From positions 1 to 35,791 of the forward strand of contig JAMONX010000086.1 in the NCBI GenBank assembly GCA_027066435.1: 35,791 nucleotides of DNA. Direction: 5' to 3'. The stretch is from Campylobacterales bacterium. GTDB lineage: Bacteria; Campylobacterota; Campylobacteria; Campylobacterales; QNZT01. Shown here in pieces: positions 384-21,755 of the stretch. The first letter of the stretch is position 1. Each line of letters opens with the position of its first letter. The notes under the pieces were generated by a model. The model did no database searches. It saw only the letters and a list, made by a program, of their open reading frames with translations, and was not told where the DNA came from. The translations under genes were made by a program, and so were the position numbers.

Positions 384-1220
384 TTAGTAAAGGGTACTCT
401 TTCTATCATTAAAATTAAAAAATAGATTATGACTCTCGTCATACTCTTTAATTGTTAACATACTCATAGCATATTTTGAAAAAGAGGTTCTTGTAAGTTG
501 AAAATGTCTTATCATGTCAATCATCCACAATGGTACTTGATGAGGGTAGCATTTAAGCTCTAAAACCACGGAACTTCCTATGGGTCTGTTTGGCTCTTTT
601 ATATATACAAGTTCATTATCATAAGGTGTTAATTTTTTTGTATCTGGCTGTAGTGTATAGTCATTTTCAAGATAACAGCACATATCTATATCCATAGTAA
701 CTCTTACATACTCATCTACTTCCGAAACAAATGCTCTTCTTTTATATTGGGTAAATATTTTTGGAGTTGCTGCATATTTTAGTGCTGTTACATAAAATAA
801 CTCTTTGTTAACCATTTCAGACTCTTTACCTTGAAGATGTGTTCTGTATTCTATGTCTGTAAACATTCTTGACCACTCATCATCATCAATCATGCATCTA
901 TATTTATTTACACTATTTGCATCTTTATATTTTATCTCAAGAAAATATGGAGGAACTGGGTTATTCCCATAAGCTCTAGCTCTCATGTTGAATCTTGGAT
1001 TTTTTGTATAAAGACGATTTGTTAAAAAAGTATAATTTGGTGTATCATAATATAAACTATTTACAGGATAAAAAAAGTTTTCTGCGCTTTCTGAGTGACC
1101 ATCAAGCACACAATAATTCATTAAATAATCTGTCATAGGCTTAACTATCTCAAAGGGTATAATATATTTTAACTCATACCTATCTAGTTTTGATATGAAA
1201 GAACCGCCTAAATTTGCCAT
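384..1220 (-). CDS. VTC-domain polyphosphate polymerase
   Basis: A 278-residue protein that is almost entirely one VTC domain, the catalytic fold of the yeast vacuolar transporter chaperone (VTC4), which makes polyphosphate from ATP inside a basic tunnel. The expected landmarks are present in order: RYELKY near residue 14, a YYDT segment, MRARAY followed by FLEIKYKD, QYKRRAFV, RVTMDID, VLELKCY and SKYAMSM. The basic and acidic tunnel residues therefore look intact. There is no signal peptide or membrane segment, so it should work in the cytosol. It is the last gene of the minus-strand operon, starting 12 bases after the TolC-like stop. In other bacteria VTC-domain genes often sit beside DUF4956 and CotH genes, as here. 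Polyphosphate synthesis is the expected activity; coupling to export is inference. Confidence 0.88.
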   Translation of the reverse strand: MANLGGSFISKLDRYELKYIIPFEIVKPMTDYLMNYCVLDGHSESAENFFYPVNSLYYDTPNYTFLTNRLYTKNPRFNMRARAYGNNPVPPYFLEIKYKDANSVNKYRCMIDDDEWSRMFTDIEYRTHLQGKESEMVNKELFYVTALKYAATPKIFTQYKRRAFVSEVDEYVRVTMDIDMCCYLENDYTLQPDTKKLTPYDNELVYIKEPNRPIGSSVVLELKCYPHQVPLWMIDMIRHFQLTRTSFSKYAMSMLTIKEYDESHNLFFNFNDRKSTLY

Positions 1221-1232
1221 TTTTTATATACC

Positions 1233-2447
1233 TTATTTTTTAAGAAGTGAGTTAATAGTCAAATTATTAGTTCTATACAAAAGATCAATAAATTTACTAT
1301 ATAACTCCTTCTTTGTTTTAATTAAATTCCTTTTAATTTCTAAATGGTTATTTTCAAAAACAAGTAATTTAAGTGGATCAGAATTCTTAAATTCTTGATA
1401 AGCTTGAAAAAAACTATCATTTTCAATGCTCTCTTTAGCATACAATATATTTGAGTTTAAAATATCAATTTCTTTCATTATGGATAAGATTTGATATTTT
1501 AAATCTTCCTCTTTCTTATTCAATTTATTTTGTGCATCTAAAAATTTTATTTTTTCATTAACACTTTTTAATATATTACTTCCAGACCATGTTTTTTCTA
1601 GGCTTAATCCAACAGATAGTGACTTTTTAAATACATTTTCATTTTCATATTTTAAATCAATACTATTTATGTGAAATCCATCTGCTATTTTTGAAAGCTC
1701 CATTTTATCTTTAGCTAACAAAACTTCTATCTGCTCTTTTTCTAAAAATTTTAGAGATGTTTTATTGAAGTCATTTTTATTTTTATTGATAAAGCTAATT
1801 ATCTCTTGTACACTTATAAAAGCTCTCTTTTCAAATGCATTATCAATCTTTTCAATGTCTACATCTGGAATATATTGTCTAATTTTTAATAAATTATTAT
1901 AATACTTTTGTTTTTTCTTTAACAAACTATACTCTATCTTTTGCACTCTCTTTTTTATCTTTGCTAAATTAATAACATCTGTAACACTATCAGTAACGCT
2001 GAGTGCCAAATCTAGCTGTCTCTTATTAATATCTAATAAATTTTGCATATTTTGATAAGACTTTTTTTGAAAATTTGTATTAATGAGTAAATCATAGTGC
2101 CTTTTTAGGGCTTTAGATTTAGTATTTTCATAAGAGATATCAACTCTGTTTTTTGATAAGTTATAAATCTCCTCTTCTTTGTCTATTTGTGAAAATGTTT
2201 TAGGATAAAGTCTTAATTCAAAAGCAACATCAATATTTTCTTTATCAAACCTAGAGTAGCCGACATTAAACCTTGCTTTTTCAATCAAAGTTTTATTAAA
2301 TCCATTTTCAGCAAAAATTTCTTGCTTTGCTTCTATGTTTTTTAAACTTTGATATTCACTAAATGAGAGTAAAAACTTTTCTAAAATAGGCTCTGCCGAT
2401 AAACTACAGATACAAAACCAACCTATAATAATTAATTTTTTTTGCAT
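1233..2447 (-). CDS. TolC-like outer membrane efflux protein
   Basis: About 404 residues, with a signal peptide (hydrophobic run then CSLSA-E) and long helical, Lys/Asn/Leu-rich repeats such as DINKRQLDLALS and RAFISVQEIISFINKNK, which fit the outer-membrane-factor (TolC/OEP) fold. It is shorter and more diverged than typical TolC. I chose the ATG at 2447 over the TTG one codon upstream. With it the start overlaps the HlyD-like stop as TGATG, which suggests translational coupling. Together with the HlyD-like adaptor it should form a periplasm-spanning conduit. No ABC or MFS pump is encoded next to it; the only inner-membrane partner in the operon is the DUF4956 protein. Confidence 0.75.
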   Translation of the reverse strand: MQKKLIIIGWFCICSLSAEPILEKFLLSFSEYQSLKNIEAKQEIFAENGFNKTLIEKARFNVGYSRFDKENIDVAFELRLYPKTFSQIDKEEEIYNLSKNRVDISYENTKSKALKRHYDLLINTNFQKKSYQNMQNLLDINKRQLDLALSVTDSVTDVINLAKIKKRVQKIEYSLLKKKQKYYNNLLKIRQYIPDVDIEKIDNAFEKRAFISVQEIISFINKNKNDFNKTSLKFLEKEQIEVLLAKDKMELSKIADGFHINSIDLKYENENVFKKSLSVGLSLEKTWSGSNILKSVNEKIKFLDAQNKLNKKEEDLKYQILSIMKEIDILNSNILYAKESIENDSFFQAYQEFKNSDPLKLLVFENNHLEIKRNLIKTKKELYSKFIDLLYRTNNLTINSLLKK

Positions 2448-3505
2448 CAATTTAACTTTAAAAACTCTAGCAAAGCAATAACTTTTGTCTCAAAAATACT
2501 CTTCTTTTCTAGAGATGAATTAATCATCACTTTTTTACCTAATTGCAGACTATTTTCAGGAAGACTAATAAGTACTTTGTAGCCCCAAAGTGGAACAATT
2601 TTATATTTTTTAAGCTTAATGGGAATCTCTTCTATACGATTTTCGATACTTTCAATTGTTCCATAAACCATGTTTTTACTACTATTTGTTTTATTAAAAG
2701 CAAATACTTCAACCTTTTGTCCAACTTTGAGATCATTGATAATATCTTCATGGATATAGCCAGTTGCAAACTTCGGGTAAACAGAATGAATTGTCAAAAG
2801 AGTGTCATATGCTTTTATTGTGGCATTTCTATTATAGTTCATCGAACCTATTTCACCATCAATTGGAGAATAAACTATTAATTTCTCCTCTTTTTCACTC
2901 AAAATCTTTTTCTCTTCTAAAAGCTTATGTATTTGTGCTTCAAAAGGTGTATTAACATGTTCTAATTTTTGCATTAATTGTTTTTTATGACTCTCATATA
3001 CTATTTGTTTTGATTGCTTATCTTTTTTTAATGATTTTATTTTGTATTCTAAAGTTGCAAAAGAATTTCTATCTATATCTATAATTGACTGAAGTAACTT
3101 TTTATTCTCATTTAATTTTAATCTGCTCTGCTTGATTTGCATATTGAGTTTTTCTATTGCAATTTTATATTTTATATCAAGTATTTGAAGCTCTCCATTA
3201 ATATCATTAACTTTAATTAATTTTTTAGCTTGTGATTCACTTATTTTAGAATTTACAATACTTACTTTAGCAGATAAATTAGATCTAAATAGTTCTATAA
3301 GTAAATCACCTTTTTTTACTTCTTCACCCGGTAAAACATGCGTTTTAACTATCTGTACTGCGTATGGAAAATTTATCTTTTGCTCTTTATTTGAAGTAAG
3401 TCCAATAAATTTATCTACCTTTGCTTGATTAAAAACTGTAATAAAAACAAGTAACAAAATAGCACCAATCCATGCTGCCCAAAGTATCCATTTACCTGTT
3501 TTCAT
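2447..3505 (-). CDS. HlyD-family membrane fusion (periplasmic adaptor) protein
   Basis: A 352-residue protein with one N-terminal membrane segment (about residues 6-25, WILWAAWIGAILLLVFITVF). It has a biotinyl/lipoyl-like half motif (VQIVKTHVLPGEEVKKGDLL), a long coiled-coil hairpin (about 75-195), the second lipoyl half (EKLIVYSPIDGEIGSM) and beta-barrel segments ending GKKVMINSSLE. This is the standard adaptor layout linking an inner-membrane component to a TolC-type channel. Its ATG overlaps the DUF4956 stop by four bases, and its stop overlaps the TolC-like start, so the three are tightly coupled. The cargo is unknown; the operon suggests a polyphosphate- or CotH-related product. Confidence 0.85.
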   Translation of the reverse strand: MKTGKWILWAAWIGAILLLVFITVFNQAKVDKFIGLTSNKEQKINFPYAVQIVKTHVLPGEEVKKGDLLIELFRSNLSAKVSIVNSKISESQAKKLIKVNDINGELQILDIKYKIAIEKLNMQIKQSRLKLNENKKLLQSIIDIDRNSFATLEYKIKSLKKDKQSKQIVYESHKKQLMQKLEHVNTPFEAQIHKLLEEKKILSEKEEKLIVYSPIDGEIGSMNYNRNATIKAYDTLLTIHSVYPKFATGYIHEDIINDLKVGQKVEVFAFNKTNSSKNMVYGTIESIENRIEEIPIKLKKYKIVPLWGYKVLISLPENSLQLGKKVMINSSLEKKSIFETKVIALLEFLKLN

Positions 3506-4185
3506 AACTCTACCGTCGCTTCTTGCATCATAAAATGTATCCCTTTTATTGAGGGAATTTTGTTTAATGATTCTACAAAATCATCATGACGAGCACCTTT
3601 TTTTAACTTAACCTGATAAGCATAATCAATTCGATTACCTTGTGCCATATCTCGAAGAGTAATTAAAGCAAATGTTCTACAAGATTTCCGCATACACTTC
3701 TCCAAAGCCTCTTTATTATCAGACTCATTTTCAAGACTAAAACGAAGCATTCCATCAAAAAAGCTACTCTCTCCAAAAGGAGATACATACAATATAAAAG
3801 CAGCTATGATAAACATAGCTGTTCCTACTATTGCAATACTATAGCCATTTACACCACATGATACACCAACTGCTAAAGAAGCAAAAACAAAAACAATGTC
3901 ACGAGAATCTTTGAAATTTGTACGAAATCGAATCACTGCCATAGCCGCCATTATACCAAGCCCCCTAGCTAGATTATCACCAACTGCCTGCATAACAGTT
4001 GAAGCGACTATTGAAATCAAAATCAATGTTTGAACATAATTTCGAGAGTAAGAAAGTGCTCTATATGTCTTTTCATATGTAATAGCAATAAGTGTGGATA
4101 ATACAAATGCCAATAAAGATGAATACACCAAAGATATTATTGTAATATTTCCAGTTGTTGTTTGAAGTGTCATAAAATCTAACAA
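3502..4185 (-). CDS. DUF4956 multi-spanning membrane protein
   Basis: A 227-residue protein with four probable membrane segments in the first 145 residues. It has the conserved core motif RGLGIMAAMAVIRFRTNFKD, followed by DIVFVFASLAVGVSCG, which is diagnostic of DUF4956, and a soluble C-terminal domain of about 80 residues. The start is a TTG with a well-placed AAGGA seven bases upstream. It is the first gene of the operon DUF4956-HlyD-TolC-VTC. DUF4956 has no settled function, but it is repeatedly found with VTC and CotH genes. By analogy with the yeast VTC complex, where membrane subunits carry the new polyphosphate chain across, it could be the inner-membrane channel or anchor for the VTC enzyme. 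That role is inference. Confidence 0.85.
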   Translation of the reverse strand: MLDFMTLQTTTGNITIISLVYSSLLAFVLSTLIAITYEKTYRALSYSRNYVQTLILISIVASTVMQAVGDNLARGLGIMAAMAVIRFRTNFKDSRDIVFVFASLAVGVSCGVNGYSIAIVGTAMFIIAAFILYVSPFGESSFFDGMLRFSLENESDNKEALEKCMRKSCRTFALITLRDMAQGNRIDYAYQVKLKKGARHDDFVESLNKIPSIKGIHFMMQEATVEL

Positions 4186-4205
4186 TTGATTTTCCTTTAA
4201 TTATG

Positions 4206-4228
4206 TTTTATAGTGGTATACTATAAAA
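4206..4228. promoter_or_regulatory. 9-bp perfect dyad in the divergent promoter region
   Basis: TTTTATAGT and ACTATAAAA are perfect inverted arms around a 5-base spacer, about 20 bases upstream of the DUF4956 start. A weaker dyad, TTTAATA-5-TATTAAA, lies at 4246-4264. The 124-bp gap separates the minus-strand transport/VTC operon from the plus-strand lipoprotein genes, so this may be a shared operator. No regulator gene lies next to it. Confidence 0.4.
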
Positions 4229-4309
4229 TAAGTTTAATTTTTATATTTAATATATTGTATTAAACTTTATATTAAACCTATATTGTAATACATAAATAAA
4301 AGGAATAAC

Positions 4310-5119
4310 TTGTATAAAATTTTTAGTTTAATAATATTTATATTTCTACTTGGCTGTGGAAGTGAAAATAGCAAAAAAATTGAAAAAATTGAAAAAATTG
4401 GAACAATTGTATCAATAAAAGAAGCCTCTGGCATATGCTATGTAGCTAAAACTGATACACTTTTTGTTGTTGGTGACAATGGTTTTGTATATGAAATTGA
4501 TAAAAATGGTTTAGAATTGAATAAAAAAGATTTTAGATGGAGAAAAAATAATGATTTTGAAGGTATTACTTACGATGACCAGAGAGATTTACTCTATATC
4601 GCAATAGAAGGTGTAGATAATATATTGGTTCTAAATAGAACTTTAGACTATTTAAGAGAGGTTAATATAAAAAGGCAAGATAGTGATGGTAGAGATATCT
4701 TAGCAAATGGAGGTGAAGGATTAGAAGGCATCTCTATATATAATGGTCAAGTTTATGCATCTAATCAATCTTTTGTTAAGTTGATTGCATCTGAATCTGA
4801 CCCTTCAGTTTTAATTAAACTTGACTCAGTAACTAGCAACAAAGCTTCTATTGAAGAGGTAATTGATATAGGCTATATAAATATCTCTGGGATGACATTT
4901 TATAATAACCTACTATATCTGGTTAGTGATACTGATGACTTATTGATTAAATATGACATTATAAGTGATAAAGTGTTAGATGAACAACCTATAAAAGAGA
5001 TAAATAAAGTACTTGTTGATGTTTCATTAGAAGGTGTAGCTTTTGACAATGACAGGTATATATACTTTGCAATCGATGATAAAAATGAAGGAAAAATAGT
5101 AAAATATAAATTTTTTTAG
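4310..5119 (+). CDS. Lipoprotein, SdiA-regulated/YjiK-like beta-propeller
   Basis: A 269-residue protein. The start is a TTG with a good AAAGGA upstream. The lipoprotein signal ends FIFLLGC, placing the lipidated Cys near residue 16. The body has blocks such as EASGICY, TLFVVGDNGFVYEID, DFEGITYDD, EGLEGISIYNG, ISGMTFYNNLLYLVSD and LEGVAFDNDRYIYFAID, the repeating blades of the SdiA-regulated/YjiK (phytase-like esterase) propeller family. It heads the plus-strand set of surface lipoproteins, diverging from the VTC export operon. A propeller that binds a phosphorylated ligand or scaffolds a complex is possible, but no catalytic claim can be made. Confidence 0.75.
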   Translation: MYKIFSLIIFIFLLGCGSENSKKIEKIEKIGTIVSIKEASGICYVAKTDTLFVVGDNGFVYEIDKNGLELNKKDFRWRKNNDFEGITYDDQRDLLYIAIEGVDNILVLNRTLDYLREVNIKRQDSDGRDILANGGEGLEGISIYNGQVYASNQSFVKLIASESDPSVLIKLDSVTSNKASIEEVIDIGYINISGMTFYNNLLYLVSDTDDLLIKYDIISDKVLDEQPIKEINKVLVDVSLEGVAFDNDRYIYFAIDDKNEGKIVKYKFF

Positions 5120-5196
5120 ATTAAAGCATTTTTTTATATTTATTTAAGTATATTGGAAATTCAAAGTAAAAATATTTTAATATTGAGGTTATAGGC

Positions 5197-6435
5197 ATGA
5201 AAATTACAAATAGTATTATATCATTCTCAGCATCACTACTTCTGTTTTTATCAGGTTGTGGAGGCGGAAGTGGAGATACCCCTGATCCTGCTCCTATAGA
5301 GGGTTCAAAACTGGTTATTAGTGAAATTTTAGCAGAAAACAATAGTACCAATACAGATCCAGATTTAAATCTCTTTAGTGATTGGATTGAAGTACAAAAT
5401 ATATCTACAGAAGAGTTGGATATTAGCGGCTATGGATTAAGTGATACTAGCAAAGAGATAAAATGGAATTTTCCAAATGATACAAAAATTGCAGCAGGTG
5501 CATATTTGCTAATATGGGCTGATGATTTTAATGAGACTTTAAATCCAAATCCTACTGCTTTACATACTAACTTTAAAATCAAATCGAATGATGAAAGTGT
5601 TACCCTTTTTGACTCAGCCGGTGCTTTGATAAATCAAGTGAAATTAAAAGATCATAAAACGACAGAGTCTGACATATCTATTGCAAGAGGAGCTGACGAT
5701 ACCTTCACTCTAGCAATTACACCAACTCCTGGAAGGGCAAATGATTCAGCATCAGTGACTGTATCACAAAAACCAAGTTTTTCAATATCAGAAGGTGTTT
5801 ATTCAGTTGCATTTAGTGTAACAATTACTGCTGGAAATGGTGCGGATATATATTATACACTAGATGGAAGTGATGCGACCCAAAACTCTATGAAGTATAT
5901 AAGCCCCATATCGATTAACGAAAACAAAACAACACTAAAATCTATTGCTAAAGAGCAGGGAAGTACCAAGTTAATTAGCAAAGAAAAAAGTGTTACTTAT
6001 GTAATTGCACCGGCACATGATGTTGTTATCAATGAGCTGTTTGCAGATAACAATAACACAAGTATGCAAATATATGAAAAAGATGACTGGATAGAATTAT
6101 ATAATACTGCAGCAACTCCAGTTGTTTTAGACGGATACCGATTAAGTGATTCAAAGAAGCTTGAAAACTCAAATTGGGTAATACCAAATGGTACAACAAT
6201 AGGTGCAAATGGATATTTGATCATATGGGCTGATAATAACAACTCAACAACCCAACTTCGCACAGACTTTAAATTAAGCAATAAAGGAGATTCTGTTGTA
6301 CTTTATAATGATAGTGACTTTATTATTGATTTTATAGATTATGGCAGTCTAAAAAATGGTCAATCTTTATCAAAACAAGGTGACAATAACTTTACTAAAG
6401 CAACACCAACACCAAATGAAGTAAATAGCCAATAA
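5197..6435 (+). CDS. Lamin-tail-domain lipoprotein (LTD-CHB_HEX_C-LTD)
   Basis: A 412-residue protein. The signal ends LFLSGC (Cys21), followed by a Gly/Ser/Pro linker. There are two lamin-tail domains at about residues 36-160 (KLVISEILAEN...DWIEVQN...LSD...YLLIWADD) and 272-405 (DVVINELFADN...DWIELYN...YLIIWADN). Between them, at about 190-268, is a chitobiase-C-terminal-like domain (PSFSISEGVYS...YYTLDGSD). The same LTD and chitobiase-like modules occur in the two CotH proteins directly downstream, so the three genes probably share a domain pool and act at the same place on the cell surface. LTD domains are thought to be adhesive or protein-binding. No enzyme domain is present here; it could be a structural partner or a CotH substrate. 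Confidence 0.85.
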   Translation: MKITNSIISFSASLLLFLSGCGGGSGDTPDPAPIEGSKLVISEILAENNSTNTDPDLNLFSDWIEVQNISTEELDISGYGLSDTSKEIKWNFPNDTKIAAGAYLLIWADDFNETLNPNPTALHTNFKIKSNDESVTLFDSAGALINQVKLKDHKTTESDISIARGADDTFTLAITPTPGRANDSASVTVSQKPSFSISEGVYSVAFSVTITAGNGADIYYTLDGSDATQNSMKYISPISINENKTTLKSIAKEQGSTKLISKEKSVTYVIAPAHDVVINELFADNNNTSMQIYEKDDWIELYNTAATPVVLDGYRLSDSKKLENSNWVIPNGTTIGANGYLIIWADNNNSTTQLRTDFKLSNKGDSVVLYNDSDFIIDFIDYGSLKNGQSLSKQGDNNFTKATPTPNEVNSQ

Positions 6436-6451
6436 AAAGGAAAAATACAAT

Positions 6452-9400
6452 ATGAAAACTGAACTTAACTTACACCATTATGTTAAGATAACTCTCTTTA
6501 CTTTACTACTTTTACTAAGTGGGTGTGGAGGAAGCAACCAAACACAACGAACAGATAACAACCAAACACAACCAACAGATGGCAACCAAACACAATCAAC
6601 AATAAAAGATAAAATATCACCAGAAATTACTATATTAGGGGATAAAAAAGTTTTTCTTAGTGTTGGTGACACTTATCAAGATCCTGGTGCAATTGCAACC
6701 GATAGTATAGATGGAGATATATCCACATCTATACAAACAACCTCAAATATTAACTTTAACACACCAGGTGAATATACCATAACTTATCAAGTTTCAGACA
6801 AAGATGGCAACAGTGTTATTGTAACTAGAAAGATTATGATACAAGATATCATTACATCCCCGCAACCTCGAGCAGGACTAACTATAAATGAAATATTAAC
6901 CGCAAATACATATTCTGAACTTGATCCAAAGTTTAAACAGTTTTCAGATTGGATTGAACTCTATAACAATGATAATAGTGCAAAAGATATTGGAGGATAT
7001 TATCTAAGTGATGATGTAAACAATTCAAGAAAATGGAAAATTCCAAGTGGCACAATGATAGGTTCAAAAGATTATTTATTGATTTGGGCAGATAAAGAAG
7101 ATACTGGATTACACACTAATTTTAGTTTAAGTGCTGATGGTGAAATAGTAACTCTTTCAGATTTAAATGGAAATATAGTTGATAGTGTTGAATTTGATAA
7201 ACAAAGGAGTGATGTCTCTTGTAGTAAGATAAATGATAAAATATATTATATGAAGCCAACACCAGCAAATGCTAATGGCATAGCACATGGGGAGCTTTGG
7301 AGTTCTAAAAAACCAGATTTTTCACTGCAAAGTGGATTTTATGATGGTACTCAAACCATAGAATTAACACAAAAAAAACAAGGTGCTATTTACTATACAA
7401 CAAACGGTTCAATACCGACAAAAAATTCTACTAAATACACACAGCCAATTTCAATCAACAAAACAACAGTAATAAGAGCTAGAGCTTTAGAAAATGGAAA
7501 ATTTTTAAGTTCAATTAAAAATAGAACATATTTGATTAATGAAAATATTACTCTGCCTGTTGTCTCTTTGGCTATTGATGATAAATATTTGTATGATGAA
7601 AAAACTGGAATTTACACAGTAGGTACGGATGAAAATGGTAATCCACACCCTACACCTGAAGAGGATGATGATTGGGATAGTGCAAATTATTTTCGTAACT
7701 GGATGCGTCCTGCAAGTATTGAATATTTTAAAGACGGTAAATCTAAATTCTCTGAAAATGTAGGTCTTAGAATATATGGTGATGGAAGTAGAAAAAGAGA
7801 GCAAAAATCACTTGCTATTTTTGCAAAAGATAAATATGGTTCAAAATCTATAAATTACAAACTCTTTCCAGATAGGAATATTAAAAAGATAAAAAGTTTT
7901 ACACTACGAAGATCTGATGAGCGAACTAACTTAAGAGATGGGCTTTCACAAACTATTATCAAGGATGTTATGGATTTAGATTATCAATCTTATCATCCTA
8001 CAGTTGTATTTATCAATGGACAATATTGGGGTATACTGAATGTTCGAGAGAAATTAAATGAGGCTTATTTAGAAGCACACCACAATGTAGACCCAGATGC
8101 TATTAATATAATTACTCCTTATAGTGAAACAGTGTACAGAGCAACATCTGGTACAGCTACAGAATATACTCAACTTATCCAATACATAAAAGACAATAGC
8201 TCATCTGCATCTACTGATACATTCTATGAACATATTTCTTCAAAAATTGATTTGAAAAATTATCTAAATTATATTATTACACAAAATTTTGTAAATAATA
8301 CAGATTGGGCTATTAGAAATATAAAATTTTGGAAAGAGCAAAAAGAGGATTCAAAATGGAGGTGGATGTTATATGATTTAGATAGTGCTTTTTGGGATGT
8401 AAGAGATAACCCATTTGTATTTTCGTTGGCATTAGATGGAATAGGTTATATAAATCCAGCATGGTCAACTTATTTTCAAAGAAGCTTATTAGATAATAGT
8501 AAAATTCAAAATGAATTTATTAGCAAATTTACTTCTCATTTATATACAACTTTTCAACCATCAAGAATTGAAGGTATTATTGACAAGCTTGCTAATCAAC
8601 TTAAACCAGAAATTCAAAGACATTTTGCTAAATGGCCAGAAGATAATCCCGTTACAAATTTTGATAGTTCCTTATCTTCACTCTATGGTTTTGCACAAGA
8701 GAGACAAGACATTATGAGAGGACATTTGGCTTCACAATTTGGTGTATCTGGGAACAACATATTAGAGATTCAAAAAAACCAAAATGGGACAATTTACCTA
8801 GATGACATCAAACTTGATGATACATTTAGCGGACATTATTTTAATAATGCAAAAGTAACTATAAAAGCTGTAGCAAATATAGGATACAAATTTAGTAGAT
8901 GGACGGGAGACAATACAAGCAGTACATCTGAAATTAGTTTAACCATAAATTCAGATACAACTATTGGAGCAGTGTTTGAGGTAGTGCCTATGCCAAGTAT
9001 TGTCATAAATGAGATTAATTATAAATCATCTTCTGATTTTGATACAAAAGATTGGTTAGAATTATATAATTATGGAGATACTTCCATAAGTTTATCTGGA
9101 TGGGAAATTAAAGACAATAATGATAATAGTTCATTTATCATCCCAAATAATACAACACTTACTCAAAATAGTTATCTCATAATTTCCCAAGATAGAGCAA
9201 CTTTTCAAGTATACTATACAAATATAACAAATGTTTTGGGTGATTTTCAGTTTGGTTTAGGTAGAGATGGTGATACCGTGAGACTATACAACTCTGAAGG
9301 TACTTTAATAGATAGCGTTACATACAATCAAAGTTGGCCAAATGCAGATGCAAATGGAAAAACACTCTCTTTAGTAAATCCACAAAGTGATAATACTCTG

Positions 9401-9454
9401 CCTGATAATTGGATTGCAGATAATAATCATGGCACACCTGGAACTGATAATTAA
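6452..9454 (+). CDS. CotH-kinase lipoprotein with DUF5011, two lamin-tail domains and a B-repeat
   Basis: A 1000-residue lipoprotein (LLLSGC, Cys25). Order: an 8-residue tandem linker (three NQTQxTDx units), a DUF5011 Ig-like domain (about 53-130), LTD1 (about 142-280), a chitobiase-C-like domain (about 287-370), a CotH kinase domain (about 372-770), a B-repeat-like domain (FSRWTG...TIGAVFE, about 775-845) and LTD2 (about 848-1000). CotH enzymes are atypical secreted protein kinases. The likely catalytic pieces are visible: RIYGDGSRKREQKSLAI, NTDWAIRNIKFW (Asp618, Asn623) and YDLDSAFW (Asp642, Asp644). The start has AAAGGA about ten bases upstream and follows the LTD gene by 16 bases. It probably phosphorylates surface or periplasmic protein. 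Most of the N-terminal third is nearly identical to the next gene. Confidence 0.88.
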   Translation: MKTELNLHHYVKITLFTLLLLLSGCGGSNQTQRTDNNQTQPTDGNQTQSTIKDKISPEITILGDKKVFLSVGDTYQDPGAIATDSIDGDISTSIQTTSNINFNTPGEYTITYQVSDKDGNSVIVTRKIMIQDIITSPQPRAGLTINEILTANTYSELDPKFKQFSDWIELYNNDNSAKDIGGYYLSDDVNNSRKWKIPSGTMIGSKDYLLIWADKEDTGLHTNFSLSADGEIVTLSDLNGNIVDSVEFDKQRSDVSCSKINDKIYYMKPTPANANGIAHGELWSSKKPDFSLQSGFYDGTQTIELTQKKQGAIYYTTNGSIPTKNSTKYTQPISINKTTVIRARALENGKFLSSIKNRTYLINENITLPVVSLAIDDKYLYDEKTGIYTVGTDENGNPHPTPEEDDDWDSANYFRNWMRPASIEYFKDGKSKFSENVGLRIYGDGSRKREQKSLAIFAKDKYGSKSINYKLFPDRNIKKIKSFTLRRSDERTNLRDGLSQTIIKDVMDLDYQSYHPTVVFINGQYWGILNVREKLNEAYLEAHHNVDPDAINIITPYSETVYRATSGTATEYTQLIQYIKDNSSSASTDTFYEHISSKIDLKNYLNYIITQNFVNNTDWAIRNIKFWKEQKEDSKWRWMLYDLDSAFWDVRDNPFVFSLALDGIGYINPAWSTYFQRSLLDNSKIQNEFISKFTSHLYTTFQPSRIEGIIDKLANQLKPEIQRHFAKWPEDNPVTNFDSSLSSLYGFAQERQDIMRGHLASQFGVSGNNILEIQKNQNGTIYLDDIKLDDTFSGHYFNNAKVTIKAVANIGYKFSRWTGDNTSSTSEISLTINSDTTIGAVFEVVPMPSIVINEINYKSSSDFDTKDWLELYNYGDTSISLSGWEIKDNNDNSSFIIPNNTTLTQNSYLIISQDRATFQVYYTNITNVLGDFQFGLGRDGDTVRLYNSEGTLIDSVTYNQSWPNADANGKTLSLVNPQSDNTLPDNWIADNNHGTPGTDN
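6536..6607 (+). repeat. Tandem 24-bp coding repeat, three units
   Basis: Three 24-base units encode NQTQRTDN, NQTQPTDG and NQTQSTIK just after the lipidated Cys. It is a hydrophilic spacer between the membrane anchor and the first domain. The paralogue has four units. Confidence 0.75.
6557..7599 (+). repeat. Long direct repeat, copy 1 of 2 (about 1,043 bp)
   Basis: This matches 9598-10640 at a constant offset of 3,041 bases with no indel. The only difference I saw is C at 6683 versus T at 9724 (Pro to Ser). It covers part of the linker repeat, DUF5011, LTD1, the chitobiase-like domain and the first residues of the CotH domain, then identity stops abruptly after tgtatgatga. Outside it the two genes are only moderately similar, so this is a recent homogenised segment inside older paralogues. 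Confidence 0.9.
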
Positions 9455-9468
9455 AAATAGAGGCAGTA

Positions 9469-11976
9469 ATGAAAATACAAATAAATTTATACTATTATTT
9501 CAAAGCTATTTTCTTTACTTTACTACTTTTATTAAGTGGCTGTGAAGGAGGTAATCAAACACAGCCAACTGATGACAATCAAATTCAAATAATAGATGAC
9601 AACCAAACACAACCAACAGATGGCAACCAAACACAATCAACAATAAAAGATAAAATATCACCAGAAATTACTATATTAGGGGATAAAAAAGTTTTTCTTA
9701 GTGTTGGTGACACTTATCAAGATTCTGGTGCAATTGCAACCGATAGTATAGATGGAGATATATCCACATCTATACAAACAACCTCAAATATTAACTTTAA
9801 CACACCAGGTGAATATACCATAACTTATCAAGTTTCAGACAAAGATGGCAACAGTGTTATTGTAACTAGAAAGATTATGATACAAGATATCATTACATCC
9901 CCGCAACCTCGAGCAGGACTAACTATAAATGAAATATTAACCGCAAATACATATTCTGAACTTGATCCAAAGTTTAAACAGTTTTCAGATTGGATTGAAC
10001 TCTATAACAATGATAATAGTGCAAAAGATATTGGAGGATATTATCTAAGTGATGATGTAAACAATTCAAGAAAATGGAAAATTCCAAGTGGCACAATGAT
10101 AGGTTCAAAAGATTATTTATTGATTTGGGCAGATAAAGAAGATACTGGATTACACACTAATTTTAGTTTAAGTGCTGATGGTGAAATAGTAACTCTTTCA
10201 GATTTAAATGGAAATATAGTTGATAGTGTTGAATTTGATAAACAAAGGAGTGATGTCTCTTGTAGTAAGATAAATGATAAAATATATTATATGAAGCCAA
10301 CACCAGCAAATGCTAATGGCATAGCACATGGGGAGCTTTGGAGTTCTAAAAAACCAGATTTTTCACTGCAAAGTGGATTTTATGATGGTACTCAAACCAT
10401 AGAATTAACACAAAAAAAACAAGGTGCTATTTACTATACAACAAACGGTTCAATACCGACAAAAAATTCTACTAAATACACACAGCCAATTTCAATCAAC
10501 AAAACAACAGTAATAAGAGCTAGAGCTTTAGAAAATGGAAAATTTTTAAGTTCAATTAAAAATAGAACATATTTGATTAATGAAAATATTACTCTGCCTG
10601 TTGTCTCTTTGGCTATTGATGATAAATATTTGTATGATGATGATATCGGTATCTACACAGAAGGAAATCATATAAACTTTAAACACGATTGGATGCGTCC
10701 TGCAAGTATTGAATATATCAAAAATGGTGAATCCAAATTTTCTGAAAATATTGGTGTAAGAATTTATGGAGGAGGTAGCAGGGTTTATGCACAAAAATCA
10801 CTTGCTATTTTTGCTAAAGATAAATATGGTCCAAAATCGATTAAATACAAACTATTTTCTGATAAACCATTTATCACTAAAATAAAAAGTTTTGTTCTAA
10901 GAAATGGAGGAAATGAGTGGCAGCGTACTATGATGAAAGATGGGATGATTCATGACTTAATAAAAGATAATATGGATATTGATCGTCTATCTTATCATCC
11001 AACTATAATGTTTTTAAATGGAGAGTACTGGGGAATTCATAATATTCGTGAAAAAGCGAATGGAGATTATATAGAAGCAAATCATGGTATTGATGCAGAT
11101 AATATTGATATGCTAAAAAATCCAATGAAAGCTACTGCTATAGCAACTAAGGGAGATTCGAAAATATATACAAATCTACTTAAGTTTGTGGAAAATAATG
11201 ACCTTTCAATTCAAGTAAATTATGAGCAAGCTATTAAACAAATTGATTTAAGTGAGTATTTAAACTATCTATGTACTCAAATCTATATAGGAAATAATGA
11301 TTGGCCAGGTAACAATATAAAGTACTGGAGGGAGCGTAACAATCATGGAAAATGGAGATGGATACTTTTTGATACAGATTATAGTTTTGGGGGCTACACT
11401 CATAACTCTATTGATTCAGCACTGGATGATAATAGTTTAAGTGCAGACAATCCTCCTTGGTCAACGCTGTTATTCAGAAACTTAATAGAAAATGATGAAT
11501 TTAAAAATAAATTTGTCGGCAGATTTACATCTCATTTATATACTACATTTAATAAAGAGAGAATTGATAGTTACATTACTCAATATAAAAATGAAATAGC
11601 ACCTCAAATGCAAAGACACTATGAAAAATGGGGGCAAAAAAGTTTTAGTGAATGGGAAGAGTATATCGGCTATCTTTATAGATTTGCTAATAAGCGTCCA
11701 TCATACATAATGGGTTTTATATCTCAAAGGTTAAATGTAAACGGTAGCAATACCCTAACCATCCAAACAACACAAAATGGTACAATATATCTAGATAATA
11801 TAAAACTTACAGATATATTTAGTGAGGATTATTTCAATAATGCAAAAGTAACTATAAAAGCTGTACCAAATGCAGGATATGAATTTACTAGATGGAATAA
11901 CGGACAAACAAGCCAAACAATAGAAATAACACTTAATACCAATGTCACAATCAGTGCATTATACAAAATTAGATAA
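9469..11976 (+). CDS. CotH-kinase lipoprotein, second paralogue
   Basis: An 835-residue lipoprotein (LLLSGC, Cys25), 14 bases after the first CotH gene and with the same order: linker (four NQTQ-type units), DUF5011, LTD, chitobiase-C-like domain, CotH domain and B-repeat-like domain (FTRWNNGQTS...TISALYKIR). It stops there and lacks the final LTD of its neighbour. Candidate catalytic segments are RIYGGGSRVYAQKSLAI, NNDWPGNNIKYW (Asp611) and FDTDYSFGG (Asp635, Asp637), all retained. Residues up to about 390 are nearly identical to the first CotH protein, while the kinase domains have diverged clearly. The kinases may therefore have different targets but the same surface docking modules. It is the last gene of the plus-strand set. 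Confidence 0.87.
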   Translation: MKIQINLYYYFKAIFFTLLLLLSGCEGGNQTQPTDDNQIQIIDDNQTQPTDGNQTQSTIKDKISPEITILGDKKVFLSVGDTYQDSGAIATDSIDGDISTSIQTTSNINFNTPGEYTITYQVSDKDGNSVIVTRKIMIQDIITSPQPRAGLTINEILTANTYSELDPKFKQFSDWIELYNNDNSAKDIGGYYLSDDVNNSRKWKIPSGTMIGSKDYLLIWADKEDTGLHTNFSLSADGEIVTLSDLNGNIVDSVEFDKQRSDVSCSKINDKIYYMKPTPANANGIAHGELWSSKKPDFSLQSGFYDGTQTIELTQKKQGAIYYTTNGSIPTKNSTKYTQPISINKTTVIRARALENGKFLSSIKNRTYLINENITLPVVSLAIDDKYLYDDDIGIYTEGNHINFKHDWMRPASIEYIKNGESKFSENIGVRIYGGGSRVYAQKSLAIFAKDKYGPKSIKYKLFSDKPFITKIKSFVLRNGGNEWQRTMMKDGMIHDLIKDNMDIDRLSYHPTIMFLNGEYWGIHNIREKANGDYIEANHGIDADNIDMLKNPMKATAIATKGDSKIYTNLLKFVENNDLSIQVNYEQAIKQIDLSEYLNYLCTQIYIGNNDWPGNNIKYWRERNNHGKWRWILFDTDYSFGGYTHNSIDSALDDNSLSADNPPWSTLLFRNLIENDEFKNKFVGRFTSHLYTTFNKERIDSYITQYKNEIAPQMQRHYEKWGQKSFSEWEEYIGYLYRFANKRPSYIMGFISQRLNVNGSNTLTIQTTQNGTIYLDNIKLTDIFSEDYFNNAKVTIKAVPNAGYEFTRWNNGQTSQTIEITLNTNVTISALYKIR
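9553..9648 (+). repeat. Tandem 24-bp coding repeat, four units
   Basis: The units encode NQTQPTDD, NQIQIIDD, NQTQPTDG and NQTQSTIK. This is the spacer behind the lipidated Cys; the upstream paralogue has three units, a copy-number difference of one. Confidence 0.75.
9598..10640 (+). repeat. Long direct repeat, copy 2 of 2
   Basis: The partner of 6557-7599, in the same orientation and the same reading frame. Unequal exchange between the copies would remove about 3.0 kb and leave one chimeric CotH gene, so the locus could be unstable. Assemblies from short reads may also collapse here. Confidence 0.9.
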
Positions 11977-12034: not shown

Positions 12035-13669
12035 TTATAAATGCCCACCTCTTACACATCTACTTCTAACCGACTCATTATTTTCCTTTGATATAGTGAC
12101 ATCTTTTAAAGTATCTCTTGCATCAATTTCAGGATCGGCATCACGATAATCAAAATGCGATCGGTTTTCTATATACTTTGCTTTTGATAAATTATTATCC
12201 TCTGTTGATGACCAGTAAGGACCAGTAACATTATGTATTTCCACATTATCACCACCAAAAGTAAAATGATTGTCATGATCTGGTTTAATAGTATGAAGCT
12301 CATTAATATTTGGAAGTCTCCAATCACTTTTTTCTCCAAGAACAAGATTTTTACATCTAAGTTTTGCATCAAACCAAGATAATACTTGATTTACACCCTC
12401 AGTATCATTAGACCATTGTAAATTTGTACTACTATCTGAGATAATTGAATTATCACTACTCAGTGAAAAATCTCCATCAGGTATAACATCCCCCTTAACA
12501 CACCTTGCATGATGTCCATCTTCTTGTGTTTTTAAAATGGCAAAATCAACCCCATTTCTAAAAGATATAGCAAAACTTTGATTGTTCTCATTTCCAAGAT
12601 GACCAAATAGTGTTAATTGCTGCGAAGTCCAAAAATATCCATTATTTTTTTGTGTAAATGCGTTATCTATCATTGGATTAGCACCACTACCATCTTTACT
12701 ATAATTTACAATTTTGAAAAGTTCTCGTCTTGTTGGCAATCTCCAACCTCCACCACTTCCATCACAGTAAGACTCAGCATTATCAAAATTTCTATTAACC
12801 AGCACATCTTCATCATCTTTCCAAGTCAATCCATCAATTGTAACTTCACTATTAGCAACTGTTGTTTCTCTATCATCACCAAATGGCAACCCTGCAATAA
12901 CACCGTCATCAGAACCTGTTTTTAATACTCTTTTAGTTGCAGCACCAGCATCTGTATTGTCATCAGTAATTGTTATAGAAATATTTTGAGTCTCTTTGTT
13001 ATTTTGTGCATCAGTAGCACTAACAGTTATATTATAAATATTATCACCATTTACATCAGATTTATCTTCAAAATCAGGCGTAAAATGAGCAAATACCAAA
13101 ACCCCACTAGTTGCATTTATTTCAAACCTATTTTGATCTTGACTATTCTCAAGAGCATATGTAATAGGTGTACTATCATCCGTAGCTTTAACTATAAAAT
13201 TAAGTGATCCATTCTCTTGTATATTTTTACTAGTAGATGAAGTAAATACTGGATTTATTTCATCTATATCATCACTAACATCATTGGTTATGGTAATAAT
13301 TATAGTATGAGTCTTACTCTCACCGCCACTACTTGTAGCGGTTACAATCACTTCATAAGTATTATCTGTATCTACATCAGTTGGGTTTTCAAAATCTGGT
13401 GCAGTCATAAAAGTAATGGCTCCACTATTCTCATCTATATTAAATTTAGCACTATCTGCACCACCACTAATACTATAAGAGGTAGCATTTGTTGCTGATA
13501 CCGTCATAACTGCCAACTCACCTTCAACCAAACTTTTAGAAGTTGGAGTTGTTGTAAAATCCGGTGTTGTGTCGTCAGGAGTTTTGCCAGTAGAATCACT
13601 ACCACAACCTGAAAAAAGAGAAATTGCCAATAAGGTGGCAAAAGAGTATTTGAAATATTTTTGATGCAT
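12035..13669 (-). CDS. Cadherin-like/DUF1566 surface lipoprotein
   Basis: A 544-residue protein. The lipoprotein signal ends SLFSGC (Cys22). Two cadherin-type repeats at about 35-130 and 138-238 each carry the PDFE-P-DV..DN.Y.V.V.A pattern and end TITND or TITDD. Two DUF1566 (Lcl C-terminal, lectin-like) units follow, with GGGWRLPTRREL...WTSQQ and SDWRLPNINEL...YWSSTED, ending RSRCVRGG. DUF1566 domains are common in surface proteins and usually fold like C-type lectins. It is convergent with the CotH genes and monocistronic, so it is probably a separate transcription unit, though its surface location fits the neighbourhood. Binding or adhesion is likely; the ligand is unknown. Confidence 0.82.
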   Translation of the reverse strand: MHQKYFKYSFATLLAISLFSGCGSDSTGKTPDDTTPDFTTTPTSKSLVEGELAVMTVSATNATSYSISGGADSAKFNIDENSGAITFMTAPDFENPTDVDTDNTYEVIVTATSSGGESKTHTIIITITNDVSDDIDEINPVFTSSTSKNIQENGSLNFIVKATDDSTPITYALENSQDQNRFEINATSGVLVFAHFTPDFEDKSDVNGDNIYNITVSATDAQNNKETQNISITITDDNTDAGAATKRVLKTGSDDGVIAGLPFGDDRETTVANSEVTIDGLTWKDDEDVLVNRNFDNAESYCDGSGGGWRLPTRRELFKIVNYSKDGSGANPMIDNAFTQKNNGYFWTSQQLTLFGHLGNENNQSFAISFRNGVDFAILKTQEDGHHARCVKGDVIPDGDFSLSSDNSIISDSSTNLQWSNDTEGVNQVLSWFDAKLRCKNLVLGEKSDWRLPNINELHTIKPDHDNHFTFGGDNVEIHNVTGPYWSSTEDNNLSKAKYIENRSHFDYRDADPEIDARDTLKDVTISKENNESVRSRCVRGGHL

Positions 13670-13967: not shown

Positions 13968-14597
13968 ATGAGAAATGCATTTAACTTAATAGAGTTGATT
14001 TTTACTATTGTTATTATGGCAGGAATCTTTGCTGTTATTCCAAAAATCATTTTTGTTACCAATAAAAGTGATACATTTGCGATAAAACAAGATGCACTTT
14101 TTAATGCTATCTCTCTTACAAATATCGCGTCTTTGCTCTCTTGGGATGAGAATAGTAGCCAAACACTCTCTATCTTAACAACATCTGATAACTCTATTGA
14201 GTGCAATACAACTACATTTTTAAGAGTTGGTGGTTTTTTGGGTTCAAATTCAAGAAACTGTAAAGAGAGTTTTTACGCATCTAGTATTGGAAGCGATGGG
14301 GAGAGTAATTATCTTTTTTTTAATGACATAGATGACTTTGATGGTGAGAAAATAGATGTAAATTTTAGCTCAAAAATAAAATATAAAATTTATACAGAGG
14401 TAAGATATTTAAATGACGCAATTTTCACAACAGATGGAGATATGATGACAATTGTTTTAGATAACTCTACTCGCTCAAACACATCAAATATCAAAAAATT
14501 TAAAGCAACAATCTCTTATAAAGATAAAAATATCTCTAGTTTTTCTTACTACTCAACCAATATCGGGCAAATTACTTTAAATAGTGAGGCTTGGTAG
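13968..14597 (+). CDS. Type IV minor prepilin (MshD-like position)
   Basis: A 209-residue protein starting MRNA|FNLIELIFTIVIMAGIF: a four-residue leader, the prepilin-peptidase site with Ala at -1, Phe+1, the conserved Glu+5 and a hydrophobic N-terminal helix. The rest is a globular domain with a Cys pair (NSIECNTTT...NSRNCKE) that could form a disulphide. It is the first gene of the long pilus operon. Minor pilins of this size prime assembly or sit at the tip. Its MSHA counterpart is uncertain; the position at the head of the minor-pilin group suggests an MshC/MshD role. The next gene overlaps it by one base. Confidence 0.8.
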   Translation: MRNAFNLIELIFTIVIMAGIFAVIPKIIFVTNKSDTFAIKQDALFNAISLTNIASLLSWDENSSQTLSILTTSDNSIECNTTTFLRVGGFLGSNSRNCKESFYASSIGSDGESNYLFFNDIDDFDGEKIDVNFSSKIKYKIYTEVRYLNDAIFTTDGDMMTIVLDNSTRSNTSNIKKFKATISYKDKNISSFSYYSTNIGQITLNSEAW

Positions 14598-15469
14598 TGA
14601 AAAGAGCTTTTACTATGGTGGAGTTAATTATGACTATCGTTATTATGGGGATACTTTCAGGTGGTACTTATATCTCGCTTTCTCATCTTTATACAAAAAG
14701 TGCAAAATCAAAAGCGATAAGTGAGCTCTCATTTGATACGACTCTTATATCAAATCAGATTTCAGCACTTTTATACCATAGAGTTCCTGCAACTGTTATC
14801 GGTTTTAAACCCTCAGATGGTAGTTTTGAGTCGATTTACAATTTAGGTAAAGAGTATGAAGTTGTAGAGTGGATAGGAACTGATTTTGAGAGTTATAGAG
14901 CTAAAAAATATAGCTCCTTTATAGATTTTGTAAAATCAGACAAAGATGCAAATATGACCTATTCTCCAGATACACAAATTCAAGATATAAATAGTACAGC
15001 TCTTATGTTTTCAGGTGCATATGATGAGGGTATTGTTTATGGAGTTGATTTTAATGACTCTTTTGGGTGGTATGGAAATGGAAGAAATCTTATCTATGAT
15101 ATCAATGAAACCTCAACAGGGAGTGAAATAATACTAACTAGCAAACCATCGATAATTTATGAAAAATATTATCTCTTAAAGAGTGCATATGCCATCACAA
15201 AGTATGAAGATATAAATGCAACTTGTTTAGTTGATTCAAATATCATTGCAACTGATAAAACATTACTATTTTTTTATGACTATTATCCATGGAGAGGTGA
15301 GACATTTTGTCAAGATGGGCGTGTAACAGTTCTTTCAAATGAAGCAAAAGGTTTTGAAATAGATTTTGTAAATGGAAATTTACAGTTTAACCTTACACTT
15401 GAGAGAGAGATACGAAAAAGAGGTAAAAACTTAAATATCCAAATTTCAAAACAAAAGGTTGTGTTTTGA
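14597..15469 (+). CDS. Type IV minor prepilin (MshO-like)
   Basis: A 290-residue protein starting MKRA|FTMVELIMTIVIMGILSG with Glu+5, followed by a large globular domain. I chose GTG 14597, whose TAGTG overlaps the previous stop, over a TTG two codons upstream because it gives the family's short leader. The length and order (large minor pilin followed by a short one) resemble mshO-mshP. Sequence beyond the N-terminal helix is not recognisable by eye. Confidence 0.78.
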   Translation: MKRAFTMVELIMTIVIMGILSGGTYISLSHLYTKSAKSKAISELSFDTTLISNQISALLYHRVPATVIGFKPSDGSFESIYNLGKEYEVVEWIGTDFESYRAKKYSSFIDFVKSDKDANMTYSPDTQIQDINSTALMFSGAYDEGIVYGVDFNDSFGWYGNGRNLIYDINETSTGSEIILTSKPSIIYEKYYLLKSAYAITKYEDINATCLVDSNIIATDKTLLFFYDYYPWRGETFCQDGRVTVLSNEAKGFEIDFVNGNLQFNLTLEREIRKRGKNLNIQISKQKVVF

Positions 15470-15879
15470 AAAGGGGTGGTTTTGGGATGATTCAAGTTAT
15501 CTTTTTTATGCTTATTCTCTCTGGTATATTATCTATCTCTATGAAGTATGCTTCTATTACTACCAAGCAGACTGAAGATTTGTATGTCAAAGAGCAGGCT
15601 TTACTTTTTATGCAGAGTGCTATTGAATTGACTTTACTTGGGATTAGTTCGCATGATTATAATGCTAGTGGATTTATAAATGATATTAGGGTTGTTTCTG
15701 ATGATAAAAGATTTATTGCAGATATCAATATCACAGATTATTATATTTTTGGCATAAATCTTGATACAGAGGCATCAAATGGAATGATAAGTTTGGATAT
15801 TGTTGTTGAAACAAATAGTTCGCATCCTAAAAATAGTCGAAAGATAAGAGTTTCAAAAAGGAGTTTGCAAAGATTATGA
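15466..15879 (+). CDS. Minor prepilin-like protein lacking Glu5 (MshP/GspK-like position)
   Basis: A 137-residue protein starting MKRGG|FGMIQVIFFMLILSG. It is prepilin-like, but the +5 residue is Gln instead of Glu. Tip pseudopilins such as GspK and PilX-type proteins may lack Glu5, so this could cap the fibre. TTG is the start, in a TTGA overlap with the previous gene. The C-terminus is basic (KIRVSKRSLQRL). Placement between an MshO-like and another minor pilin supports an MshP-type role; this is inference from order. Confidence 0.7.
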   Translation: MKRGGFGMIQVIFFMLILSGILSISMKYASITTKQTEDLYVKEQALLFMQSAIELTLLGISSHDYNASGFINDIRVVSDDKRFIADINITDYYIFGINLDTEASNGMISLDIVVETNSSHPKNSRKIRVSKRSLQRL

Positions 15880-16328
15880 GAAGAGCATTTTCTATGATTG
15901 AGTTGATTTTTATAATTATAATATTGGGTATTTTAGGAGCATCTATAAATATGAATATGCCTGATAATAGACACACTAATGATATCAACTTTATCATAAG
16001 CAAGATAAAACAAAAACAGATGCAATCACTCTCATATGATAACTTTGACTATAAAACCAATACTTTTATAGATGATAAAACTTGCATAAATATTGATAAA
16101 ACCTCTATAAATTCACTAGAATTTAATAGTACAAATTCAAATCCATACCAAATTAGCTCTAAAACCATTCTATCAATAGATGAACCAAATATCTGCTTTG
16201 ACAATCTAGGACGACCTTATAAATTAAATATTTTCGTAAAAATGCCGATAGAGTTAAATATAACCTATAAAAATAAAATAAAAACGGTAAATATCATGCC
16301 TTATAGTGGTCATGTTATGTTGAAATAG
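15876..16328 (+). CDS. Type IV minor prepilin (GspH/MshC-like)
   Basis: A 150-residue protein starting MRRA|FSMIELIFIIIILGILGA, with Ala-1, Phe+1 and Glu+5. It has a small globular domain with a Cys pair (DDKTCIN and EPNICFDN) spaced like the disulphide loop of GspH/FimT-type minor pilins, followed by GRPYKLNIFV. The ATG overlaps the previous TGA (ATGA). It is the fourth and last minor pilin before the assembly-platform genes. Confidence 0.78.
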   Translation: MRRAFSMIELIFIIIILGILGASINMNMPDNRHTNDINFIISKIKQKQMQSLSYDNFDYKTNTFIDDKTCINIDKTSINSLEFNSTNSNPYQISSKTILSIDEPNICFDNLGRPYKLNIFVKMPIELNITYKNKIKTVNIMPYSGHVMLK

Positions 16329-16339
16329 AGATGTAAAAA

Positions 16340-17782
16340 ATGATTAATTATCTAAACTTACAAAATAACAATGCAAACTTTAAAAACAGAAAAGATCCAG
16401 TAGGGGCTAGACTCCTTTATGGCGATGTTATCTCTCACAGTCTTAAAATATCTAATAACCTCTCCCATGAAGAGTTGCTTCTCAAAATTGAACTTAAGAT
16501 GTATCAAGATATTGGTTTAGACCCAACAAAAGAGTATAAGATAACATATGTTCAAAAAGATGTAGAGCTTGAAAACCAGATGCTTATAGAGGCATTTGCT
16601 ATAGATAAAAATTTGATTTTAGAAAAGTATCAAAAACATCTAAAGTTTACAAAACATATTGATTTTCTTGCACTCCCCTTTTTATCATTTGAAACTCTCT
16701 ATACAAATAAAATATTAATGCCTAAAAATGATATATTTATCTATATCTCAAGAGATGAAGCATTTACTACCTCTTTCCAAGATGGTCGTTATATCTCTTC
16801 AAAAAGGTTAAATCCTCTAGTCAAAATGGTAGAAGATTTAAATGCAAGAGATATTGTTTTAACTTGTGAAGAGTTAGAAGTTATAATTAGTCAAAAAGGG
16901 TTAGACAAGAGTAAATATGACCTTTTAGAGCAAGAGCTTTATGAGTATCTATTTGAAACATTTGGAGAACTCTTTTCTAAGATAAAAAATTTAAGTTTGC
17001 ATCACCGAAATGTATATAATTTTTCTCAAATTGATAGAATCTTTATAAGCTCTAGCGGTAAGCCGATAGAGCTTATAAATCCTCTAATTGAAAATTATAT
17101 AGAAGATGCCAAAGTTTTGACACTAAACTTTTTAAAATCTGAAACTTTAGATGTGCTAGATGCTATAAGCCAATCTTACATAAAAGATAAAATATCACAA
17201 AATGACAATAGACATAATCTCACAATATTTGAGAAAAAAGCACCATTTCATAAAAGTGAAGTTGGAAAATTTACTTTTGTTGTAGCTGCTAGTATCATAT
17301 TATCTTGCATCTATCCAATTTATCTAAATGAAAAAATAGGTGCTAAAACTATTGAAAATGAAGCTTTAAAAATAAGAGAGCAAAGTATCAGTAAAAGTTC
17401 TAAAAAGCTTAAAGTAGAGTTTAAAGCACTTAAAAGTAAATTAGCTCTTTTAAAGTCAAAGCAACAAGAAGATTTGAAAAAACTTCAAAAACTTCAATCA
17501 ATTGCAGATACACTTTTATCACTACAGTCAAAAGATACACAATATACAGCAATGTTTTTAGAGATAAACAGGGCTTTAAAAGCTCATAAATTGTCTATTG
17601 ATAAGATAACTCAATCAGATGCACATGTATTGGATTTAGAGCTTTTTTCACAAGAAAATAGAAGAGATTCGATAGCACTTTTTATGAAGGATTTATTAAA
17701 TGCTGGTTTTAATAGTGTTATCTCTGGTGAGATTACATCAAGTGATGATAGATACAAAAGTATTATTACGGTGAAGAGATAG
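16340..17782 (+). CDS. Assembly-platform protein, PilM-PilN-like (MshI-like)
   Basis: A 480-residue protein. Residues 1-300 form a soluble domain without signal peptide, placed like the cytosolic actin-like PilM/GspL domain. A single membrane segment follows at about 311-330 (FTFVVAASIILSCIYPIYL), then a Lys/Leu-rich coiled coil (about 335-390) and a small ferredoxin-like domain (residues 400-480), as in PilN. It therefore combines PilM- and PilN-type parts in one chain, as GspL does. In MSHA loci mshI stands first in the I-J-K-L-M-N-E-G series, exactly its place here. It links the ATPase to the periplasmic platform. Confidence 0.72.
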   Translation: MINYLNLQNNNANFKNRKDPVGARLLYGDVISHSLKISNNLSHEELLLKIELKMYQDIGLDPTKEYKITYVQKDVELENQMLIEAFAIDKNLILEKYQKHLKFTKHIDFLALPFLSFETLYTNKILMPKNDIFIYISRDEAFTTSFQDGRYISSKRLNPLVKMVEDLNARDIVLTCEELEVIISQKGLDKSKYDLLEQELYEYLFETFGELFSKIKNLSLHHRNVYNFSQIDRIFISSSGKPIELINPLIENYIEDAKVLTLNFLKSETLDVLDAISQSYIKDKISQNDNRHNLTIFEKKAPFHKSEVGKFTFVVAASIILSCIYPIYLNEKIGAKTIENEALKIREQSISKSSKKLKVEFKALKSKLALLKSKQQEDLKKLQKLQSIADTLLSLQSKDTQYTAMFLEINRALKAHKLSIDKITQSDAHVLDLELFSQENRRDSIALFMKDLLNAGFNSVISGEITSSDDRYKSIITVKR

Positions 17783-17784
17783 AT

Positions 17785-18812: not shown

Positions 18813-18814
18813 AT

Positions 18815-20221: not shown

Positions 20222-20282
20222 AGTTACTCTCTAAAAAGTGTGACCTAAGTCTTTGGGTGAAACACTGTTAAAAAGAGGAAAA

Positions 20283-21732: not shown

Positions 21733-21755
21733 TCTATTTATTTTAAGGTAACAAG

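Follow-up and report, generated by a model that had tools for sequence, protein, structure and literature searches.

In the yeast VTC complex, synthesis of polyphosphate is coupled to translocation, and catalysis is impaired by the triple mutation R264A/R266A/E426N (PMC9911596). Genes of the same family also occur in bacterial clusters: VTC, CotH and DUF4956 lie in one cluster in Gram-positive Pel loci (PMC7112168), and VTC and CotH are clustered in NELoc-2 of Clostridium perfringens, in the description of which DUF4956 is not named (PMC2879425). In the literature searched, DUF4956 is seldom named, no paper with both 'VTC domain' and HlyD was found, and no dedicated apparatus bringing bacterial polyphosphate to the cell surface surfaced. 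To our knowledge, no such apparatus has been described.

The window analysed here is a whole contig of 35,791 nucleotides from a draft genome of about 2.4 Mb of the Campylobacterales, the order to which the closest named relatives of this genome belong, one of them a Sulfurimonas MAG. An operon on the minus strand (384–4185) encodes, in this order, a DUF4956 inner-membrane protein of 227 residues with a TTG start (4185–3502; PF16316, E = 1e-14, above the cut-off), a HlyD/EmrA-type periplasmic adaptor of 352 residues (3505–2447; PF16576/PF13437, above the cut-off), a TolC-type outer-membrane channel of 405 residues (2450–1233) and a VTC-type triphosphate-tunnel polyphosphate polymerase of 278 residues (1220–384; PF09359, E = 2e-38), with a 4-base overlap at two junctions and a 12-base gap at the third. 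About 125 bases from the operon, on the plus strand, begin four lipoprotein genes, each with a lipobox. They encode an SdiA-regulated/Phytase-like beta-propeller (4310–5119; PF06977, E = 9e-9; PF13449, E = 2e-6), a protein with two lamin-tail (LTD) domains (5197–6435; PF00932, E = 1e-38; lipobox LSGC) and two CotH kinase-like proteins that also carry LTD, A (6452–9454; PF08757, E = 1e-44; lipobox LSGC) and B (9469–11976; PF08757, E = 4e-48; lipobox LSGC). An earlier note on this DNA had described both the operon with its near-touching ends and the four divergent lipoprotein genes, with CotH in two and LTD in three, and all of these genes were recovered; the propeller gene is the one that it had left unnamed. 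Adjoining the CotH genes is a further lipoprotein gene with cadherin-like and Lcl_C domains (12035–13669), followed by an MSHA-type pilus operon (13968–24655; secretin, AAA protein, T2SSE ATPase, T2SSF) and then ADP-heptose genes. When a Pho box was sought upstream of the operon, matches were not above those in shuffled sequences, with the exception of one locus.

A profile search with the VTC family returned yeast Vtc4 as its best solved relative (E = 5e-16), and in an alignment of 31 type-B VTC homologues R80, R82, E221 and K223 are invariant, these R-x-R and E-x-K residues aligning with the Vtc4 motifs that are altered in the impaired yeast mutant. Judged by family and residues, the enzyme is predicted to polymerise polyphosphate from ATP. 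Since PPK1 is also encoded in the same genome, polyphosphate does not depend on the operon, and its intracellular form can be ascribed to PPK1. The channel scored below the cut-off for PF02321 (20.6 vs 22 bits), and its family profile found no relative by sequence among solved structures, so that we turned to fold prediction. The resulting AlphaFold model (mean pLDDT 88.9) consists of long helices with two beta-hairpins between them, which is the fold of a TolC protomer, and it was matched by Foldseek to TolC-family structures (ST50/TolC, E = 6e-11, TM 0.67). For the HlyD family profile, the nearest solved structures are EmrA and MacA; a tblastn search of the adaptor against plasmids gave no match.

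The DUF4956 protein was likewise modelled with AlphaFold (mean pLDDT 72, a moderately confident model), which yielded five predicted transmembrane helices and a C-terminal ACT-like domain. Besides PF16316 the protein weakly matches MgtC, and structural comparison likens its C-terminal domain both to ACT domains and to the corresponding domain of MgtC (E about 0.006); the likeness is confined to this domain, the membrane part has no solved relative, and a search by sequence found no relative in the PDB. R86, F87 and R88 are invariant in 35 DUF4956 homologues of both types. We propose that DUF4956, which is probably oligomeric in the inner membrane, may serve there as a conduit.

We surveyed 84,980 species genomes with a scan keyed on DUF4956 alone, so that the identity of the neighbouring genes is an independent result. 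It yielded 45 loci in eight phyla (Campylobacterota, Pseudomonadota, Thermodesulfobacteriota, Myxococcota, Fibrobacterota, Calditrichota, Nitrospirota and Bdellovibrionota), of which 44 are readable, one contig ending too early to judge. HlyD lies beside DUF4956 on the same strand in every readable locus (44/44), and the channel is present too in 43/44, the contig of the remaining one ending before it. The full four-gene core was found in 37 loci, arranged as DUF4956-HlyD-channel-VTC in 31 and as HlyD-channel-VTC-DUF4956 in 6. The sole locus truly without a local VTC gene is L055, which has DUF4956, adaptor and channel. A second candidate for such a locus, L031, was rejected as a contig break: its core is split over two contigs of the same genome, the second of which picks up within the same Pit gene before continuing with VTC and a propeller-like lipoprotein. 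Near-identical Fibrobacter genomes account for about a dozen of the 45 loci, which reduces the number of independent cases and makes the spread over eight phyla the stronger point. Fibrobacter loci, among them L064 (12566–14140), also have a second pair of OEP and HlyD genes, located a few kb downstream of the core.

Of 22 genomes in the family to which the window belongs, 4 carry DUF4956, and precisely these 4 carry the adaptor (Fisher p about 1e-4, kinship ignored). The HlyD/TolC loci form one clade in the DUF4956 tree (support 100/99) and in the VTC tree (97/96), and diderm VTC-DUF4956-CotH loci without HlyD/TolC fall outside it in both. Pairwise distances of the four core proteins are correlated (r 0.54–0.87), which may reflect only the inheritance of one operon. 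The earlier note had staked its proposal on conservation of HlyD/TolC with VTC-DUF4956 in relatives, and that conservation was found; these observations support the view that the VTC-DUF4956 set of this module includes HlyD and TolC as constant members. Two of the loci without HlyD/TolC carry, after DUF4956, a gene read from its sequence as a secreted inorganic-pyrophosphatase-like protein (L018, 10688–11335; L019, 2807–3460).

The pump gene that stands alongside the adaptor in classical tripartite efflux and type I secretion is absent here. The scanned ORFs of the window include no ABC, MFS or RND exporter gene, and no such exporter family is among the first 25 families recurring in the 111 proteins that flank the core loci; the earlier observation that no ABC or MFS gene lies near is upheld. 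What does lie in or beside the operon in other lineages are genes for phosphate transport, which fits a phosphate chain as cargo. A Pit permease (PF01384, E = 3e-94 and 2e-111) is found in this position in four gammaproteobacterial loci (L031, L049, L053 and L124), in L053, L124 and L031 between the channel and VTC genes; if the background is roughly guessed at 1.5 Pit genes per 3500, finding four of them so placed among 14 loci would be very unlikely by chance, although the estimate is approximate. L031 and L069 contain a PhoU-like accessory protein (PhoU_div), a PstS-PhoU-PstC run lies 3' of VTC in the Nitrospirota locus L051, with Pst permease and ATPase genes assigned by reading of the sequence, and in L046 a Phytase-like protein follows the core. 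Using a propeller HMM, we further found relatives of the protein encoded at 4310–5119 fused to the C-termini of HlyD in 21 other loci, which ties this divergent gene to the machine.

Considering these data together, we believe that the four minus-strand genes probably constitute a trans-envelope polyphosphate synthase-exporter, polyphosphate export being their likeliest function. Cytosolic VTC would make polyphosphate from ATP, and the growing chain would pass the inner membrane via DUF4956, much as yeast VTC passes its chain through its membrane part, to be taken over the periplasm and the outer membrane by the HlyD adaptor and the TolC-type channel; the engine would be the polymerase, in place of an ABC, MFS or RND pump. 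The propeller, a free lipoprotein here and fused to HlyD elsewhere, may act as a binding or processing subunit beyond the inner membrane. The fate of the product outside might depend on the lineage, with CotH/LTD lipoproteins binding or using it in some, and in others operon-borne phosphate permeases may feed its synthesis. We infer the cargo and its direction, as we do the channel role of DUF4956 and the use of the product. The earlier note had arrived at a similar interpretation, which gains from the fixed HlyD/TolC pair, the lack of an accompanying pump and the phosphate transporters nearby, and loses in that the CotH/LTD proteins prove optional. The broader claim that a polymerase-driven HlyD/TolC conduit represents an undescribed exporter class in at least eight phyla, the basis of surface polyphosphate and, in CotH lineages, a phosphate source for kinases outside the cell, is one that we find plausible and advance more tentatively.

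The same machine could have as its main purpose the supply of polyphosphate as a donor for secreted CotH kinases, and thereby for the modification of LTD proteins at the surface, a role that we consider unlikely to be the principal one; that polyphosphate acts as donor for surface kinases at all is speculation. LTD and CotH are the commonest flanking families of the core (16/111 and 14/111 proteins), and across the order CotH occurs in 7/10 genomes with VTC vs 20/388 others, an association tested with kinship ignored. The CotH family profile retrieves the solved structure of spore-coat CotH (5jd9, E = 3e-44), whose conserved active-site region both window proteins keep, one Asp being invariant in 16 sequences and an Asn nearly so. 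Anchoring of CotH tracks the conduit, since 11/12 CotH partners in loci without HlyD/TolC are anchored in the inner membrane, and 15/15 readable ones in loci with HlyD/TolC are lipoproteins or secreted, which fits delivery of a product to where the kinase resides; the N-termini were read by hand, and few independent evolutionary events stand behind the correlation. Where spore-coat CotH obtains its ATP has been described as an unanswered question (PMC7821199). Against a primary donor role, known CotH uses ATP in vitro, 10/37 operon genomes have no CotH, and many relatives have CotH without VTC or DUF4956 (10/22 genomes in the family of the window), this last finding leading us to reject a dependence of CotH on the operon. 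The link of CotH to the operon is real but optional. A 'CotH' label that a first home-made HMM had placed in L048 was dropped, as Pfam did not confirm it. In two loci, inner-membrane-anchored CotH proteins carry repeats that, judged by reading of the sequence, resemble a right-handed beta-helix (L021, 755–4297; L018, 6247–8829). In the window itself, CotH genes A and B share about 1065 bases near their 5' ends (6535–7599 and 9576–10640) at 99.2% DNA identity (blastn), whereas protein identity between the kinase domains is only about 45%; this points to a front module that was recently duplicated or gene-converted and is joined to different kinase modules.

Other readings alter the cargo itself. 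What is exported could be some other polymer bearing phosphate, or a small anion, or metal-phosphate, with VTC being a TTM enzyme of other specificity; metal-phosphate is what Pit permeases carry, and these are linked to the core genes. The activities of TTM enzymes are diverse (PMC4641920), but Vtc4 is the best solved relative and the polymerase residues are kept, and we regard a different cargo as improbable. Far less probable still is that DUF4956 with HlyD/TolC secretes the CotH/LTD proteins, whose genes diverge from or neighbour the core: these proteins bear their own lipoboxes or Sec signals, no ABC ATPase is present, and the core is also found where CotH is missing and where phosphate permeases take its place. 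The last reading, that the adaptor and channel belong to an ordinary drug- or metal-efflux system and stand beside VTC-DUF4956 by chance, would accord with the kinship of HlyD to the EmrA/MacA adaptors, but is largely refuted by conservation, the adaptor being kept in every readable locus over eight phyla with no pump, and can hardly be entertained. Because there is no pump and CotH is dispensable, we set the classical efflux and protein-secretion readings aside and retain polyphosphate synthesis and export as the preferred interpretation.

If this interpretation is true, it adds to the tripartite systems a class powered by polymer synthesis, and the combination of a polymerase with a tripartite conduit would make both the delivery of surface polyphosphate and the source of ATP for CotH directly testable, with the isolate Desulfonema magnum (L033) as one candidate organism. 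The module is built from known parts, and there is a fair chance that it constitutes a new exporter class. With the yeast VTC complex it shares the TTM-fold polymerase family, the catalytic residues and a membrane-protein partner, and synthesis-coupled translocation in yeast serves as our model; the partner here, however, is the MgtC-like DUF4956 and not a Vtc1-type transmembrane domain, the SPX domain is absent, and an adaptor and an outer-membrane channel are added. Bacterial VTC-DUF4956-CotH clusters, of which diderm examples were also found here, resemble it in uniting the VTC and CotH families, but they have no HlyD/TolC, and the diderm ones differ in their membrane-anchored CotH and their position in both trees. 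The tripartite exporters (EmrAB-TolC, MacAB-TolC and type I secretion) have in common with it an EmrA/MacA-related HlyD adaptor and a TolC-fold channel, whereas their MFS, ABC or RND pump is here replaced by the polymerase pair. A parallel in concept is synthase-dependent exopolysaccharide export (Pel, cellulose, alginate), in which the polymer passes from an inner-membrane synthase to an outer-membrane channel, although the proteins are unrelated and the polymer, a sugar chain there, would here be one of phosphate.
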